This document shows positions 18,076 to 47,444 of a stretch of 64,000 nt of DNA, piece after piece. The notes beneath the pieces are model-generated. The model was given only the letters and a program-made list of their open reading frames with translations. It was not told where the DNA came from and searched no databases. Source of the stretch: Oceanococcus sp. (lineage in GTDB: Bacteria; Pseudomonadota; Gammaproteobacteria; Nevskiales; Oceanococcaceae); NCBI GenBank assembly GCA_030147945.1, contig JASBUL010000103.1, positions 1 to 64,000 of the forward strand, given 5' to 3'. Within the stretch, counting starts at the first letter, position 1. Each line of letters begins with the position of its first letter. Both the position numbers and the translations under genes were made by a program.

Positions 18076-18411
18076 TCAGGCCAGCGCCCATGCGGCCAGC
18101 GCCACGGCGAGGCTGCCGAGCAGGCCGTGCAGCAGCATCAGGGCGCCGGGAAAGGCTTGCTGACGCTGGCGTTTGAGAAACAGCAGCATGCCGGTGGCCA
18201 GGCTGAGGAAGATCATCAGCAGGCCTGCGCCATGAGTCGGTTCGTGCTGATCCAGGCCGAGCACCAGCAGGCCCAGCACCAGTGCGGCGGCGGCGCCGTG
18301 GGCGAAGATGCGCGCATCGTCCATGCGCATGGGTTGCTGGCGCCATTGGCGCCAGACCCACAGGCCGCTGAGTGCGGCTGCGCCGAGTGCAAGCAGTAGC
18401 GCAACAGCCAT
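18076..18411 (-). CDS. Small four-helix membrane protein, unknown function
   Basis: The ATG at 18411 gives 111 residues with about four hydrophobic segments (2-18, 38-52, 60-76 and 88-108) and short charged loops such as RQWRQQPMR and KRQRQQ. I do not recognise a family. It starts two bases after the M16 protease stop and ends three bases before trmL, so it is translated within that operon. Nothing in the sequence points to a substrate or partner. Confidence 0.75.
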   Translation of the reverse strand: MAVALLLALGAAALSGLWVWRQWRQQPMRMDDARIFAHGAAAALVLGLLVLGLDQHEPTHGAGLLMIFLSLATGMLLFLKRQRQQAFPGALMLLHGLLGSLAVALAAWALA

Positions 18412-38369: not shown

Positions 38370-38830
38370 CTATCCAGCGTCCTGTTGCCCTGCTTCTTGT
38401 CGCCTCGCTGATGATCAATGTGTTCTGTGTCGGGGCTTTGGTCAGTCACTGGATTCGGCCGCAGCCGCCGATGGTGGGCCCCTTCGGACCGCCCATGAAG
38501 CATCAGCTGCCGCCACCGGCGATTGAGCTTTTTCGCACCCTGCGCAAGGCGCCGGATGGGCCGATGGGCGAAGCCATGGCCGTGGCGCGTGAGGCACGCA
38601 ACGCGGTGCAGACGGCCATGCTCGCCGAGCCCTTTGACAAGGCAGCCTTGCTGCAGGCGTTTGATGCCTTGCGTGAAGCCGAGAGCGAGCTGGCGCGCCG
38701 GGCCCAGCAGCGTATCGCCGAGCTGGCGTCACAGCTGACGGCTGAGGAACGCGCCGATCTGGCCCGCTTCAGAGCCGGGCGCATGGGGCCGATTTCCGGG
38801 CGTTTTCCACCGCCACCGATGCAGCCATGA
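38366..38830 (+). CDS. Periplasmic heavy-metal-sensor-like protein (CnrX/CpxP-like)
   Basis: The 154-residue product from the ATG at 38366 begins with an uncleaved-looking anchor (MTIQRPVALLLVASLMINVF). A Pro-rich linker follows, and then two long helices (about 55-135) with REARNAVQTAMLAEPFDKAA and LREAESELARRAQQRIAELA. This is the pattern of the periplasmic heavy-metal sensor (Metal_resist) fold, a helical hairpin. His is scarce (about two), Met fairly common. In Cupriavidus CnrX it relieves the antisigma factor when metal binds. The ligand here cannot be told from sequence. Confidence 0.8.
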   Translation: MTIQRPVALLLVASLMINVFCVGALVSHWIRPQPPMVGPFGPPMKHQLPPPAIELFRTLRKAPDGPMGEAMAVAREARNAVQTAMLAEPFDKAALLQAFDALREAESELARRAQQRIAELASQLTAEERADLARFRAGRMGPISGRFPPPPMQP

Positions 38831-39615
38831 CAGCTGCGAAGATGTTTCGATGGGCGGGCGGTCCTGGCGTAAGCCGGCGGACCGCGCTGGCCATGCTGGG
38901 TTCGAGCGGCCTGTTCATGGCCGGTTGCGGCTCGTCGTCATCCAGCGCCGAGGGCGACTCGACCGACCAGGCGCCGGACCAGCAGGCCTGTCTGATCGTG
39001 CCCGACGAATCTTCCGGGTCTTATCCGGCTGATGGCTCGGACAGCGCCAACGTGCTGGCCAATGCGGCGGTGTTTCGTCGCGACATCCGTTCCGATTTCG
39101 GTGGCGACAACACCCAGGACGGCGTGCCGCTGCAGCTGGATTTGACCCTGCTCGATGCGGACGGCTGCGCGCCGCTGGTCGGCGCCGCCGTGTATGTGTG
39201 GCATTGCAATGCCGCCGGTGCCTATTCCGCCTATGCCGGCCTGCATCAGGCCGATCACCGCAGTGCCAGCTTTCTGCGTGGTGTGCAGATCAGCGATGGC
39301 GATGGTCGCCTGAGCTTCGCCACCATTTATCCCGGCCGTCATGCCGGGCGTGCCACCCACATCTACGCGCGCGTCTATCGTGATGACAGCCTCAATCAGG
39401 TTCTGCTCACCACCCAGCTGGCGCTTGACGAGGACACCAGCGAAGCGGTGTACGCCTCGCGGGTCAGCTATGAAGACAGCGCCGCAACCCCGGCCACCGA
39501 CCATACGCAGGACGAAGCCTTCGGTGACGGTGATCAGGCCCAGCGCCTGAGCCTGGCAGACGATGGCGCGGGCGGATATGTTGGCCGGCTCAGCGCCGCC
39601 CTCAGCGTGCTGTGA
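38827..39615 (+). CDS. Tat-type lipoprotein with intradiol ring-cleavage dioxygenase fold
   Basis: This 262-residue protein has a Tat motif SRRTALAMLG (Arg17, Arg18) and a lipobox ending at Cys34. Motifs of the dioxygenase superfamily follow: CLIVPDESSGSYPADGSD, YVWHCNAAGAYSAYAG (ligand Tyr133) and FLRGVQISDGDGRLSFATIYPG. At 168-184 it reads TIYPGRHAGRATHIYAR, where relatives usually read PGWY and HIH. The Tyr and one His ligand therefore appear exchanged (His172, Tyr180). It is the last gene of the sigma operon and overlaps the sensor gene. Catalysis is uncertain. Confidence 0.85.
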   Translation: MTAAKMFRWAGGPGVSRRTALAMLGSSGLFMAGCGSSSSSAEGDSTDQAPDQQACLIVPDESSGSYPADGSDSANVLANAAVFRRDIRSDFGGDNTQDGVPLQLDLTLLDADGCAPLVGAAVYVWHCNAAGAYSAYAGLHQADHRSASFLRGVQISDGDGRLSFATIYPGRHAGRATHIYARVYRDDSLNQVLLTTQLALDEDTSEAVYASRVSYEDSAATPATDHTQDEAFGDGDQAQRLSLADDGAGGYVGRLSAALSVL

Positions 39616-42373: not shown

Positions 42374-42759
42374 TGTCCTTGTACCGTTTTGCCCGCCTGA
42401 CCGCGATTCTGACCCTGCTGCGACGCTACCGCAGCCAGCTGTTTCGCATGCTGTTCGCTGCGCTGTTTGCGCTCATCACGGCCTGGCAGTATCAGGATGT
42501 GGCGCGTTTTCTAGATCAGCACCATCCGCAATGGGCGGCGCTGGCCTTGTTGCTCAAAACCCTGATTGTGTACGCGGCCTTGCTGTGGGTGTTCTGGGAG
42601 TTCAGCCGCATGCTGCGCGGGCCTCAGGAGCGCGCCCCGGCGCCGTCATCGCGCCCGGCTGCGCAATCCGCCACGCCGACATCTACGCCGAGTCGGCTGG
42701 ATCAGCTGATCGACAAGCCGCGTCTGCGCTCGCGCCGTCAGGACATCCTTGACGACTAG
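42373..42759 (+). CDS. Small two-helix membrane protein, unknown function
   Basis: This 128-residue protein has two hydrophobic segments (about 24-43 and 55-76), short loops, and a Pro/Ser/Thr-rich cytoplasmic tail with QLIDKPRLRSRRQDILDD. No family recognised. It is translationally coupled to the preceding 78-residue protein. Its 3' end overlaps the PepSY gene stop by four bases on the other strand. Confidence 0.72.
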   Translation: MSLYRFARLTAILTLLRRYRSQLFRMLFAALFALITAWQYQDVARFLDQHHPQWAALALLLKTLIVYAALLWVFWEFSRMLRGPQERAPAPSSRPAAQSATPTSTPSRLDQLIDKPRLRSRRQDILDD

Positions 42760-43490
42760 CGCTTGCGTGGCGCGGAGCGCAGCCACAGCCACAGTCCGCT
42801 TGCGGCGAGCAGGCCCAGAATGACGCTGGCGATGTCCATCACCAGCACGCCCCAGCGACCGGCGATGCGCCCGCTGTGCAGATCGGCGATGACCCGTTGC
42901 CAGGTCAGTTCATTGTGGCGCGCATGACGTGCAATGCGCGCGCCCAGCTCGGCTGGCAGCGCCGCCGGGGCGACATGCTCAAGCGCGGGGGCGTCACTGG
43001 GCGACCAGCTGAGCAGGCCGTCACGGCTCAGCCACCATTGGTTGCCGCTGCGCAGCCACAGCTGCTGGCCCTGGGCGCGCAGTGCCGCAACCGGGCCGGG
43101 CAGGGCGGTGCTGTCGAGCTTTTCGATGATCTCGCCTTGGGCGGTGGTCAGCAGGATCGTATTGCGGCTGGCCATCACGATCATGGGGGGCAGCCAGGCC
43201 ACATCAACCAGCGATTCAGCGGGACTGATCGCTCGCTCATTGAAATAAATCCGGCCGGCTGCATGGCTGACCCAGTGTCCATCGAGTGTCCAGCCCTGCT
43301 GCGGTGGCGTGATGTCGATGCCGTAAAGATCAAGAATGCTGTCGACCGCCACATAGCGCTGGTGCAGGCCCAGCGTGGCCGCGTGATTCATGAGGATGCC
43401 GGTGGCCACCAGCAACAGCACGAAGAGGCCGACCAGGGCGCCGGCACTGCGGTGCCAGCGGCGCACCCGCACGCGCAGGCTGTGGCTCAT
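42756..43490 (-). CDS. PepSY-associated transmembrane protein
   Basis: This 244-residue protein begins RVRVRRWHRSAGALVGLFVL, the pattern of PepSY_TM domains (W/H near the first helix). Membrane segments are near 17-35 and 215-237. The loop between them is a beta-rich periplasmic domain of about 175 residues. PepSY_TM proteins act in envelope electron transfer and iron reduction, often with an FMN-binding partner. The ATG overlaps the FMN-binding gene stop (ATGA). It is the last gene of the operon starting with a porin and a Fur-like promoter site. Confidence 0.88.
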   Translation of the reverse strand: MSHSLRVRVRRWHRSAGALVGLFVLLLVATGILMNHAATLGLHQRYVAVDSILDLYGIDITPPQQGWTLDGHWVSHAAGRIYFNERAISPAESLVDVAWLPPMIVMASRNTILLTTAQGEIIEKLDSTALPGPVAALRAQGQQLWLRSGNQWWLSRDGLLSWSPSDAPALEHVAPAALPAELGARIARHARHNELTWQRVIADLHSGRIAGRWGVLVMDIASVILGLLAASGLWLWLRSAPRKR

Positions 43491-44038
43491 GAGTGTGGGC
43501 GGTGACGATCGAGCAGCAAGGCCACCCGGGCCATGCGTCGCGCGGCCGAAACCGACAGGGTGGCGCCGGAGATGTTGTCGACCGGGCCGCTGAGGCGGTG
43601 TTGCTCGGTCAGGCGCAGGCGCTCGAACTGGCGGGTGAAGAAGTCATGGCGGATTTCCCAGCCACGGCTCTCACGATAGATCAGCACCCGGGTCGCGTGC
43701 AGCTCGCCGTTGTCGACCACAAAGCCCATGGTGATGGGCTGTTCCTTGCCGATTTCTTCAAGCACCCAGGCCGAGCGCTGGGCATTTGACCAGTAGCGCA
43801 CACGCGCGGCTCGGGGCGGATGCCCGAGGATGTCGCTGACCTGCTCGCGCAGCGGGCCGGTCAGCCACATCAGTTGCGCAGGTGGCGGCTCGCCGTCAAA
43901 GGATTCGGCGAGAAACTGATCCTGGCTGAGGTAAACGCCTTCAGCAAAGGCTGAAGGCGTAAACGCACAGGCCAGGATCAGGCACAGCAGCGCCCGGGGG
44001 CGCTTAGAACTGATAGCCGATGCCAAGATCGAAGCCAT
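43487..44038 (-). CDS. Secreted FMN-binding domain protein (covalent flavin)
   Basis: The start at 44038 overlaps the porin stop by about 35 bases; a TTG at 44029 or the ATG at 44053 are alternatives. The signal peptide includes LLCLILACAFTPSAFA. The FMN-binding domain ends with VDNISGATLS, the DxxSGAT-type motif whose threonine receives FMN from ApbE. QPITMGFVVDNGEL and RESRGWEIRHDFFTRQF are typical of the fold. An ApbE gene is not in the window, so it must be elsewhere. The next gene is the PepSY partner. Confidence 0.88.
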   Translation of the reverse strand: MASILASAISSKRPRALLCLILACAFTPSAFAEGVYLSQDQFLAESFDGEPPPAQLMWLTGPLREQVSDILGHPPRAARVRYWSNAQRSAWVLEEIGKEQPITMGFVVDNGELHATRVLIYRESRGWEIRHDFFTRQFERLRLTEQHRLSGPVDNISGATLSVSAARRMARVALLLDRHRPHS

Positions 44039-45167
44039 CGAAGTCGCGGCCACTGTCGCCAGCCTGCTCGTGTTCGCGCATGCGGTAGTCGACCTTGATC
44101 ACGACCTGCTCATGCGGATAGAAGTTGGCGCCGAATTCCCACTGGCTGAACTCGTCCTGGCTGCGTGCGCCATCGAGATCTTCGTAGCGGGTGTACAGCC
44201 CCAGCCACCAGCACGGTTTCCAGCTCGGCTCGACATACCAGCCGTTCTGGCTGTCGGCATCAGCCGCCTCGACCGCATCGCCGGCCAGATCCCAGGCCCC
44301 GTACAGCGCGCGCAGGGAGAACAGGCCGCTGGTCCAGGCCGCGTGAGCGGTGTACAGCAGACCTTCATCAAGACCGTCATTGGCGACCTGGCTCATGTCG
44401 CCCTGGTACTGCACGCTGGCGGCCAGCTCCAGTCCGGCTACGCCGGTATAGCGCAGGCGCGTGGTGTAAGCCAGTTCCTTGGCATTGGCGTTGGAGGTTT
44501 TCTGACGGCCGGAGCGAATGCGGAAGGCGCTGCTGCCGGCGGTGGGCACCTGCAGGCCTTCGTGGATCACCAGATCCCACTGCAGGCCGGGCGCCAGGCG
44601 TGCGGTCAGCGAGGCCGCGCCGCCCCACCAGGTGGTCGGCACGATGATGTTTTCCACATCGTTGCGTTCCACCCCGTAGAAGGTCGGCGGTTCGTGGGTT
44701 TCATTGAGAATGCCGATGGGCAGCAGCATCAGACCGCCGCGCGCGATCAGGTTGTCGCTCAGGTCGAACTCGATATACGCCTGCTCCAGCTCGACTTCGC
44801 CATTGGCGCCGTCACCGGCCAGGGCGTGCTCCAGCTCCAGTTCGGAGACGAAGCGGATCTTGTCACTGAAGGCGTAGCTGGCGAACAGGACAAAGCGGTG
44901 GAAATCCATTTCCTTGAGGTCGTTGGCGCTGTCGTCGGCGCTCAGATTGTTGTAGTGCAGTTCTCCATAACCGCCCCAATGCACTTTCTGGCTTGAGCTT
45001 GCGCTGGACTGTGCGTCCGCGATTTGCGCCAGCGCGTCGATCTGTGCCTGCTGGGCTTCGATTTGCGCCTGCAGCTCGGCAAGGGTGGCCTCATCGTTTG
45101 CTGCCACCGTGAAGCTGGCAGACAGCATCAGGCCCAGCGTGATTCCGCGCACGCGACCGTGGATCAT
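44004..45167 (-). CDS. Outer-membrane porin, coiled-coil N-terminus
   Basis: This 387-residue protein has a signal peptide (MIHGRVRGITLGLMLSASFTVA). A short coiled coil is near 27-50 (LAELQAQIEAQQAQIDALAQ), as in trimeric porins. A beta-barrel follows from KVHWGGYGELHYN to the terminal strand DGFDLGIGYQF, ending in Phe. Segments such as GGLMLLPIGILNETHEPPTFYGVERN and VEPSWKPCWWLGLYTRYED are typical of phosphate-selective O/P-like porins. It is the first gene behind the Fur-like promoter, so the substrate may be an iron-related anion or chelate; this is inference. Confidence 0.88.
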   Translation of the reverse strand: MIHGRVRGITLGLMLSASFTVAANDEATLAELQAQIEAQQAQIDALAQIADAQSSASSSQKVHWGGYGELHYNNLSADDSANDLKEMDFHRFVLFASYAFSDKIRFVSELELEHALAGDGANGEVELEQAYIEFDLSDNLIARGGLMLLPIGILNETHEPPTFYGVERNDVENIIVPTTWWGGAASLTARLAPGLQWDLVIHEGLQVPTAGSSAFRIRSGRQKTSNANAKELAYTTRLRYTGVAGLELAASVQYQGDMSQVANDGLDEGLLYTAHAAWTSGLFSLRALYGAWDLAGDAVEAADADSQNGWYVEPSWKPCWWLGLYTRYEDLDGARSQDEFSQWEFGANFYPHEQVVIKVDYRMREHEQAGDSGRDFDGFDLGIGYQF

Positions 45168-45422: not shown

Positions 45423-47444
45423 ATGAGGATTCCGACTACCCTGCGCGCCGTGTGTCTGGCTGCCTGCAGCGTGCTGTACTCGCCGGTTTTCGCGGCCGCG
45501 TTGCCGTTTCATGGCTGGACGCTGACCCACGACGATCTGGACTACAACCTTGGCGTGATCCGTCGCATGGGTGAGTTCGGCGTGACCCATGTGCAGTTGT
45601 CGCATCGCATCGTGACCCGGGTGGATCAGCTGCAGAATGAACCCGAGGTTGTAGCCCGCGTGCGTACCCTGGCCGACGCCATCCATGCTCAGGGCGGTCA
45701 GGCCATTGTGTGGATGCAGGAGCTCAACACGTCTGATACGTACAGCTACTGCTTCGACCCGGAGGGCGAGCAGATGCAGGCCAAGATGCAGGCTTATCGC
45801 GATGCGCTAGCTGGGGCGCCCGAGATCGATGGCGTGATGATCAGTTTTGGCAGTGCCCCAACTGAGCTGCAATACATCGTGCCGAGCTGTCAGGTTGCCC
45901 GTTTTGCCCAGCCCAAAGAGCGCTACAAGGCCATGATCGAAGCGATTTCACGCGTGGTCATGGATGAGTTCGGCAAGCAGGTTTATGTCCGCACCTTCTA
46001 TCACAAAGCTCACGAAATCCCGATTCTGCGGGATGCGCTGAAAGAGACCGCGCGTCCTTTGGTGGTGATGTCAAAGTCCGAACCCAATGACTTTGAGCCC
46101 TACTATCCACTCAATCCGCTGATCGCCGATGTCGGGCCGCATGACCAGGTGTTCGAGCTGGACTGTGCCGGCGAGTACTGGGGGCGGGGTGCCATTCCAT
46201 TCGTTGCGGTCGAATATTTCGTGCAGCGGTTTCGTCAGGCGCTGGAGCGTCAGCAGGACAACGTGGGTCGCTTTATCGGCAGCACCTGCCGTGTCGACCG
46301 CTATGAGTACTCGGCCATGGGCAGCCTCAATGAAGCCAATCTGTTTGCCCAGGCCCAGCTGGTGGCGGACCCCTTGGTGGATGCCGCCAGCATACTCAGC
46401 CGTTACGTGGAAAAGGCCTTTGCCGTGCAGGCCGACCGCCAGGCGCACCAGCAGCTGGTGAACATCCTGCGCCGGACGTACTGGGTTGGACGCAAGATGT
46501 ACTACGCCAAAGGTGAGTGGGCGTTCAAGAAAGGCAGCGATCTGCCGGCCAGCAATGCTGACGCCCTGTCCAACATGGTCAACAAAACCATCACCCAGTG
46601 GGATCCCGCCTACACCCTGATCACGGCAGGCCTGCTGGTGCCGACTGAGCGCAATTTGACCGAGCTGCTGCAGGAAAAATACGAGGCTCTCGACATCGCC
46701 GAACGCAATCTGATGGCGCTGTCCGCCTTGCAAGGCGAGCTGGCTGACCATGACTACGCACGCCTCGAAGCGCTGCTGCTCAAGCAGCGTCTGGCCAGCG
46801 AAGTGTGGCTGCATATGGCCGGCGCCGTTTTTGCGGCGCGCAATCTGGCCCTGACGTCCTCCCGCTGGGTGGCCTGGCATCTGGATCAAATGGAGGCCAT
46901 TGCCGATGCCCTGGATCAGGGTGCCTACAGCCAGATTGCAGATCTTTATCCGGTCTCGAGTGACGACATCCGTGCGTTTGTGGCGAATGAGCGTGGTGCT
47001 CTGGTGCCTGATGATGGCGTGGCACTGAGCGGGCCTGTGATCGCGGGCATTGATGTGACAGAGCTCGCGGCAGAGCAGGTCCGTATCGCTTGGCAGACGG
47101 AGCCTGGCGTGAGTTATCGGATCGAGCTCACCCAGCAACTTCCGGCGTATTCACAGCGCTACCCATATGCGTCAGAGGGTGTGGCGCCAGGGCCCGGTGC
47201 CGTGTTCACCATCACCGACCTGCAGCCGGACAGCCCCTACTGGTTCCGCCTGGTCGCGCAGACAGCCGACGGCGAGGTGGCGTCCGGCGACTACCCGGTT
47301 TGGACGGCCAAGGCGGACGAGGGTGTCACCAAGGCCCGTGGCGGTGGCGGCGTCCTGGAGCCGGACAGCTTGTGGATAGCGTTGCTGGCACTCGCCTGGC
47401 GACGGCGCCGTCGACGGGCCGGCATGCACGAACGGCGGGTGTGA
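45423..47444 (+). CDS. Secreted TIM-barrel-like protein with Fn3-like domain and GlyGly-CTERM-type tail
   Basis: This 673-residue protein has a signal peptide (VCLAACSVLYSPVFAAALP). A glycoside-hydrolase-like N-terminal domain follows (GWTLTHDDLDYNLGVIRRMG, QAIVWMQELNT, APEIDGVMISFGSAPTELQ), then helices to about 540. A fibronectin-III-like segment lies near 545-630 (VRIAWQTEPGVSYRIELTQ, ITDLQPDSPYWFRLVA). The C-terminus is GGGG, a short hydrophobic stretch LWIALLALAW and six arginines (640-665), the plan of GlyGly-CTERM signals cut by rhombosortase. The barrel resembles alpha-glucuronidase-like enzymes, but I cannot name the family. No RBS is strong before the ATG. Confidence 0.78.
   Translation: MRIPTTLRAVCLAACSVLYSPVFAAALPFHGWTLTHDDLDYNLGVIRRMGEFGVTHVQLSHRIVTRVDQLQNEPEVVARVRTLADAIHAQGGQAIVWMQELNTSDTYSYCFDPEGEQMQAKMQAYRDALAGAPEIDGVMISFGSAPTELQYIVPSCQVARFAQPKERYKAMIEAISRVVMDEFGKQVYVRTFYHKAHEIPILRDALKETARPLVVMSKSEPNDFEPYYPLNPLIADVGPHDQVFELDCAGEYWGRGAIPFVAVEYFVQRFRQALERQQDNVGRFIGSTCRVDRYEYSAMGSLNEANLFAQAQLVADPLVDAASILSRYVEKAFAVQADRQAHQQLVNILRRTYWVGRKMYYAKGEWAFKKGSDLPASNADALSNMVNKTITQWDPAYTLITAGLLVPTERNLTELLQEKYEALDIAERNLMALSALQGELADHDYARLEALLLKQRLASEVWLHMAGAVFAARNLALTSSRWVAWHLDQMEAIADALDQGAYSQIADLYPVSSDDIRAFVANERGALVPDDGVALSGPVIAGIDVTELAAEQVRIAWQTEPGVSYRIELTQQLPAYSQRYPYASEGVAPGPGAVFTITDLQPDSPYWFRLVAQTADGEVASGDYPVWTAKADEGVTKARGGGGVLEPDSLWIALLALAWRRRRRRAGMHERRV

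Follow-up and report, generated by a model that had tools for sequence, protein, structure and literature searches.

A GH67-like enzyme, probably secreted, with a divergent GlyGly-CTERM-type tail in Oceanococcus sp.

In Vibrio cholerae, the GlyGly-CTERM protein VesB is cleaved by rhombosortase within its glycine motif, the new C-terminal Gly gains a group containing glycerophosphoethanolamine, and surface display requires the GlyGly tail, rhombosortase and the type II secretion system (T2SS), as described in PMC6219818. According to PMC13393428, the GlyGly tail functions on unrelated passengers but requires a secretion signal, which in VesB is an Ig fold. A comparable plan was found in the product of a gene at positions 45423-47444 of a stretch of 64,000 nucleotides from Oceanococcus sp. 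(assembly GCA_030147945.1, contig JASBUL010000103.1, positions 1 to 64,000; hereafter the window). Like VesB, this protein has a presumably secreted enzyme domain behind a putative leader, an Ig-like or fibronectin type III (FN3) domain, a loose linker, and a tail composed of a Gly motif, a hydrophobic stretch and an Arg cluster; its FN3 domain occupies a position before the tail comparable to that of the VesB Ig fold, and the genome likewise encodes a rhombosortase and a T2SS secretin. The enzyme domain resembles the alpha-glucuronidases of family GH67, represented by structures from Geobacillus (Bacillus stearothermophilus; 1k9d, 1mqq) and Cellvibrio (Pseudomonas cellulosa; 1gqi, 1h41), with which it has a barrel and a helical domain in common.

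The gene probably encodes a glycoside hydrolase, secreted and uronidase-like, for which a divergent GlyGly-CTERM tail serves as the means of display at the cell surface. Both halves of the protein, the GH67-like enzyme and the GlyGly tail, are of known kinds, and what is described here is a modest new combination, not a new system; no paper combining the terms "GlyGly-CTERM" and "glucuronidase" was found in the open-access library that was searched. If true, a carbohydrate-active barrel would join the cargo of rhombosortase, and the tail would show how far a true sorting signal can depart from the curated model when its orthologs still pass. The source assembly comprises 3.14 Mb in 133 contigs and is 93.5% complete; the window is its contig C12.

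Fold and active-site residues of the enzyme domain

Foldseek searches of the PDB with two AlphaFold2 models of the window protein returned GH67 alpha-glucuronidase chains as all 11 top matches in both cases, with E-values of 9.6e-13 to 3.4e-11 in one search and 3.4e-12 to 5.7e-11 in the other; the next matches, GH84-type O-GlcNAc hydrolases, started at E 2.6e-9 and 5.2e-8. The models, which were built on four sequences only, cover the full length (pTM 0.69, mean pLDDT 70.0) and residues 25-530 (pTM 0.79, mean pLDDT 76.3), and both bear out the TIM barrel that the preliminary description had claimed. The barrel spans residues ~29-303 (45507-46331, + strand, as are all features of this gene) and has eight strands in the model (residues 29-34, 56-59, 93-99, 137-141, 186-191, 214-219, 241-246 and 284-291); the helical domain that follows, residues ~304-530 (46332-47012), is included in the structural match to GH67. 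Alignment of the domain with VIA-align gave a Z of 20.5 for GH67 1gql (rmsd 4.1 over 428 residues), 20.3 for GH138 6hzg (rmsd 4.1 over 454 residues) and 20.5 for GH84 2j62 (rmsd 8.8 over 385 residues). By its Foldseek ranks in both models and its VIA Z, the barrel and helical-domain fold of GH67 is present. The general fold is also common to GH138 (a family represented by the rhamnogalacturonan II enzyme structure 6hzg) and GH84, at VIA Z values of ~18-20.5, and to GH115 (4c91, 7pxq), at Foldseek E-values of 3e-7 to 5e-7; all three differ from GH67 in that their Foldseek scores are weaker and none of them is among the eight PDB sequences found with the active-site profile described next.

Residues were mapped to GH67 by means of MAFFT alignments with distant relatives, HMMER alignments and Pfam coordinates. 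The active-site profile (137 columns, residues 205-340, four sequences) was searched against the PDB and matched eight distinct sequences at E <=1, six of which are GH67; these are the only enzymes among the eight, and the best of them reached E 0.0035 for the whole sequence and 0.29 for the best single stretch. In the hand-counted HMMER alignment, residues D364, E386 and E392 of the Geobacillus chain, which we take to be catalytic in GH67, align with D223 (46089-46091, in an NDF motif), E245 (46155-46157) and E251 (46173-46175, in a GEYWGR motif), the first and the last of which were also placed by MAFFT. All three are invariant in the four alignment rows and present in a fifth family member. 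The spacing of 28 between D223 and E251 equals that between D364 and E392 and recurs in L062, a true GH67 encoded by a different genome of the class (domain positions 232 and 260). The chain of PDB entry 1mqr, the title of which names the mutation E386Q, scored 18.2 bits with the active-site profile, as compared to 20.4 bits for the unmutated chain.

The general acid is less clearly placed. E285 and E292 appear in the titles of mutant GH67 PDB entries, and we assume that they are the general acid. In the MAFFT alignment the corresponding column holds Ala145 in the window protein, and the invariant E148 (45864-45866; invariant in the four-row alignment) stands three residues further on, in a loop with pLDDT <50. 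E148 precedes D223 by 75 residues, and in L062 the distance from the Glu of SEGQP to the Asp of IDF is 74. Because the catalytic acid of GH67 is located on a mobile loop according to PMC3879575, E148 may be regarded as a fair candidate for the general acid, and not more than that.

The window enzyme is thus GH67-like, yet it lies outside the GH67 family, and it is probably active on uronic acids. It lacks the N-terminal domain of GH67 (no GH67N was among the Pfam matches at E 1, and the barrel starts directly after the leader), its candidate general-acid Glu is out of register, it shows only 11-14% identity to GH67 in the structure alignments, it scores below the Pfam cut-offs, and it adds the FN3 domain and the tail. 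At the sequence level, phmmer with the single window protein as query detected no GH67 chain among PDB sequences at E 10, the full-length four-row profile reached GH67 only at E 0.74 and weaker, and no result came from aligning the family profile to that of one true GH67. No true GH67 was found in the same genome (PF07488, no match at E 0.001).

The C-terminal tail and the sorting apparatus

The preliminary description had noted GGGG, a short hydrophobic stretch and six Arg at the C-terminus, and all of these are present: the Gly run at residues 640-643 (47340-47351), presumably the region of rhombosortase cleavage; the stretch VLEPDSLWIALLALAW, 16 mostly hydrophobic residues at positions 644-659 (47352-47399), which falls within a helix modelled at residues 647-665; and the Arg run at residues 660-665 (47400-47417). 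Eight residues, AGMHERRV, follow the Arg run, which is therefore near and not at the C-terminal end, and the hydrophobic stretch is not clean. Its mean Kyte-Doolittle value is 1.37, and those of seven other tails of the genome are 1.24-2.24. The tripartite plan of a Gly motif, a hydrophobic helix and a C-terminal basic cluster is accordingly found in the window tail. A filter for this plan matched a single one (this gene) of the 348 mechanically called open reading frames (ORFs) of >=60 amino acids in the window, and 37 of 20,000 sequences obtained by shuffling the 50 C-terminal residues; as it was written after seeing the tail, it shows just that the plan is uncommon.

With TIGR03501, the curated model of GlyGly-CTERM tails, the window tail scores 10.2 bits (match at 47370-47414) against a cut-off of 15.5, and it comes last of the ten matches listed in the genome at E 10, below two that are not GlyGly tails (L009, 15.4 bits, inside a protein; L013, 12.5 bits, C-terminal but without a Gly pair). 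A misfit to this model had been named beforehand as one of two results that would refute the proposed tail, the other being the lack of a rhombosortase in the genome; the tail fails the model, and as a single tail it is unproven. The reading of the tail therefore rests on orthology and plan. Two of the five family tails pass the cut-off, those of Sinimarinibacterium flocculans (G048, L022; 17.8 bits) and G026 (15.8 bits), and these two orthologs are, by their sequences, clear GlyGly-CTERM proteins. In all five, the window protein included, the plan of a Gly run, a hydrophobic stretch and basic residues directly follows the FN3 domain. When 33 Nevskiales tails, none of them from orthologs of the window gene, were made into a model of their own, it gave 25.4 bits for G026, 23.4 for L022, 11.0 for L021, 5.4 for the window tail and 4.4 for L020, and one of 338 control C-termini, again from mechanically called ORFs, outscored the window tail. 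We read the window tail as a probable drifted copy of a GlyGly-CTERM tail. The promotion of low-scoring tails on the evidence of orthologs has a precedent in Haft and Varghese (PMC3237569).

The rhombosortase and the additional GlyGly-CTERM proteins that the preliminary description proposed to search for were both found: the former on contig C131, outside the window, with 150.9 bits for TIGR03902 (cut-off 84), and the latter as five tails counted over the TIGR03501 cut-off (21.0, 20.0, 19.9, 16.6, and 15.5 bits with neighbours). Two further tails below it, L010 (14.8) and L012 (13.7), look genuine by eye. Additionally, the type II secretin GspD was detected with 581.6 bits. By analogy with VesB of V. 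cholerae, the enzyme would be exported by the Sec system and its tail would halt in the inner membrane with the Arg cluster inside; cleavage by the rhombosortase within the Gly run would leave a C-terminal Gly to which a lipid head group is attached, and the type II system would deliver the enzyme to the outer side of the cell, where the barrel, through D223, E245, E251 and perhaps E148, would hydrolyse a glycosidic bond adjacent to a uronic acid on a glycan; catalysis and substrate are inferred, as are cleavage, lipid attachment and surface location.

Each of the four other genomes with an ortholog likewise has a TIGR03902 match over the cut-off. A separate observation concerns genome G016, in which 17 TIGR03501 matches were found at E 10 (best 25.5 bits) and no rhombosortase over the cut-off (34.3 bits); this genome is 88% complete, and the rhombosortase gene may merely be absent from the assembly.

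A feature shared by the tails of the genus is an Arg directly before the Gly pair. It is present in the window tail (ARGGGG) and in 7/7 of the other tails judged genuine in the same genome (L005, L006, L007, L008, L010, L011 and L012), that is, the ten TIGR03501 matches minus L009, L013 and the window tail itself (L014); of these, four exceed the cut-off by a single match, L011 attains it together with its neighbours, and L010 and L012 fall short. The same Arg is found in the two tails that were fetched, out of 8 matches, from G001, the genome of the same genus (L039 and L049), and in none of 24 tails fetched from nine other Nevskiales genomes, these being the best few of each, with the ortholog of the window gene (L053) left out. 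Among ten aligned rhombosortases, no genus-specific acidic residue was found that could pair with Arg-Gly-Gly. The motif is the most testable new point of this analysis, resting on small numbers, and it offers a direct test of rhombosortase substrate choice.

Weighing of alternative explanations

Besides the low TIGR03501 score, several results weigh against a uronidase-like enzyme displayed by this tail. The hydrophobic stretch contains Glu-Pro-Asp near its start; two of the ortholog tails, G013 (GGSG...RSIRRG) and G030 (GGGG...RPYRRT), are unlisted by TIGR03501 even at E 10; and on the Nevskiales model the window tail is outscored by at least 8 of its own 2,000 shuffled versions. In Table 1 of PMC11389362, VesB S381R, with Arg before the Gly pair, retains 2% activity, and S384G (after the pair) and S381G (before it) are in the lowest class. 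By these V. cholerae rules the window tail, with Arg before GGGG, should be a poor substrate. The two proteins differ further in that VesB has SGGS and a Leu-rich stretch, whereas the window tail has a run of four Gly and, in its hydrophobic part, Glu-Pro-Asp. Of the 11 Nevskiales genomes tested, 10 have a rhombosortase over the cut-off irrespective of the presence of the gene, so that its co-occurrence with the gene is uninformative in this order. On the side of the enzyme, the VIA Z by itself cannot tell GH67 from GH84 and GH138, and the Pfam cut-offs were missed for both GH67M (12.9 bits, cut-off 23.5) and GH67C (16.0 bits, cut-off 27); the highest GH67M score in three scanned orthologs was 18.0. 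The term "alpha-glucuronidase-like" of the preliminary description thus holds for the fold and the three aligned carboxylates and not for membership in GH67. Similarly, the acidic catalytic residues it anticipated have candidates in these carboxylates at the level of alignment; the active-site loops have pLDDT <50 in both models. Moreover, no conserved neighbour pointing to a substrate was seen among the window and the four orthologous loci, where the neighbours vary.

The low score, Glu-Pro-Asp and the Gly-flanking residues not tolerated by VesB (Table 1 of PMC11389362) would all be expected if the tail were no longer a rhombosortase signal here, and the protein were either an inner-membrane enzyme anchored by its C-terminus and facing the periplasm, or one cut in the linker by a GlpG-type rhomboid and released in soluble form. 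The second variant has a parallel in V. cholerae, where GlpG cuts the loop that precedes the VesB tail and yields a soluble protein, as reported in PMC11389362, and a possible agent in the product of another rhomboid-like gene, which lies at C49 and with 36.6 bits stays below the rhombosortase cut-off. We nevertheless consider a lost signal unlikely, as the Gly run, the preceding Arg found in all seven other tails of the genome and the long Arg run have been retained, and two orthologs pass TIGR03501. Another sorting signal could be suspected in VLEPDSL, which resembles the VPEPSSL type of motif that we take to be PEP-CTERM: the hydrophobic stretch starts with V-x-E-P, and a hydrophobic run and Arg come next. 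However, no exosortase match was found at E 10 in the genome (93.5% complete, so the absence is not absolute), in a search in which exosortase was over the cut-off in two of eight genomes; TIGR02595 at E 10 matched three places in the genome, none over the cut-off and none at the window tail; and the orthologs carry TMGL, IGAA, AMPA and AMPS in place of VLEP. A PEP-CTERM signal for exosortase is thereby nearly refuted. A MYXO-CTERM tail was rejected, with 9.9 bits for TIGR03901 (cut-off 20) and no Cys in the tail, which the motif requires according to PMC3237569.

A more substantial doubt concerns the substrate. The barrel may act on another sugar, like the GH84 and GH20 hexosaminidases of similar fold, or only bind glycans, and for this speak the equal VIA Z of GH84 and GH67 chains, the missed GH67 cut-offs, the Gln that a distant relative on a Pelagibacterium plasmid (pPHB2) has in the E251 column of the MAFFT alignment, and the finding in PMC3879575 that GH115 shows the same core fold with other active-site residues. 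We regard this as a real, if somewhat doubtful, possibility: the best GH67 E-value is more than three orders of magnitude ahead of the best GH84 in both Foldseek searches, the VIA rmsd is 4.1 for GH67 as compared to 8.8 for GH84, the active-site profile found no enzymes other than GH67, and a Halostagnicola plasmid gene annotated as alpha-glucuronidase was found by tblastn at E 7e-3. The displayed uronidase-like enzyme remains the explanation we favour. A bolder version of it, in which the rhombosortase of the genus has changed its preference towards substrates with Arg before the Gly pair and the window enzyme founds a new uronidase family outside GH67, displayed by an altered route, seems improbable to us at present. 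Irrespective of the route, a small family outside the GH67 cut-offs could be a new uronidase family.

Other features, distribution and neighbourhood

The ORF runs from ATG to TGA, encodes 673 amino acids and matches the coordinates of the preliminary description exactly. From the sequence and the models, its parts follow in the order leader, TIM barrel, helical domain, FN3 domain, linker and GlyGly-type tail; the models show eight barrel strands, a helical domain to ~530, FN3-like strands at 541-627, a loose linker and the helix at 647-665. The putative signal peptide (residues ~1-25, 45423-45497) was judged by eye, as were the hydrophobic leaders of three aligned orthologs. Inspection by eye led to the rejection of a lipoprotein signal at LAAC (residues 12-15), as only a short hydrophobic part precedes the Cys; moreover, L020 and L022 have no Cys there, and in L021 it lies two columns off. 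The FN3 domain (residues ~541-627, 47043-47303) is supported by strands in the model and by PF00041, with 18.2 bits in the window protein (below the cut-off of 25) and 27.0 in ortholog L020. The linker covers residues 628-639 (47304-47339), with AR right before the Gly run, and pLDDT is <50 at residues 633-646 of the full-length model. The GC content at third codon positions (GC3) of the gene, 0.74, is inside the 0.73-0.82 range of six window neighbours, and thus gives no sign of very recent foreign DNA.

Of 85 Nevskiales genomes searched, 5 have the gene, and of 369 genomes drawn over the class only its own does; it was not found in the single same-genus genome or the two same-family genomes searched, and a search of phages gave no relative. 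Three aligned orthologs are 62, 58 and 55% identical to the window protein, and a fourth 57%. The best reading of these data is a sparse Nevskiales family of uronidase-like enzymes. The distant relative on the Pelagibacterium halotolerans plasmid pPHB2 (4,050 bp) was detected by tblastn (25.4% identity, E 2e-15); it is a 530-amino-acid ORF (L063:3-1592) without a listed gene, in an incomplete gene table, that adjoins a GH43 gene and has a weak DUF4838 match.

In the window, the enzyme gene is divergent from a row of genes for PepSY_TM, FMN_bind and O/P-type porin proteins (42756-45167, - strand). In S. flocculans (L022) and in L061 (G026:C3:175000-192000), the gene is located among secreted PhoD-like and purple-acid-like phosphatases by Pfam, and the L020 and L021 loci showed by eye only unrelated genes and no phosphatases. 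Besides the phosphatases, a large lipoprotein with a PHP-like stretch was seen by eye in L022 (100-5923 and 9601-11265) and L061. The S. flocculans ORF (L022:5929-9570, NZ_QICN01000013.1) does not end at the GlyGly tail (17.8 bits) but continues in frame, by way of a short segment rich in Arg and a lipobox-like stretch, LLLSAGLAAGLSAC, into a CehA/McbA metallohydrolase (NF038032, 169 bits). As it stands, this reads as two putatively secreted enzymes linked by a membrane hairpin; loss of a stop codon, an error in sequencing or an internal start in the same frame may also account for it. The junction has a weak match to the NF058595 "lipo-invert" tail (14.1 vs 37 bits), and the G026 ortholog is without the metallohydrolase half.

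Two minor observations were made elsewhere in the window. At 18163-18243 (- strand), a TIGR02595 (PEP-CTERM) match of 11.1 bits against a cut-off of 16, in a 165-amino-acid open frame, is probably due to chance. At 38827-39615 (+ strand), a protein with a Dioxygenase_C domain (catechol/protocatechuate dioxygenase) has a leader with SSGLFMAGC, and is perhaps an exported, lipid-anchored, intradiol-dioxygenase-like enzyme.

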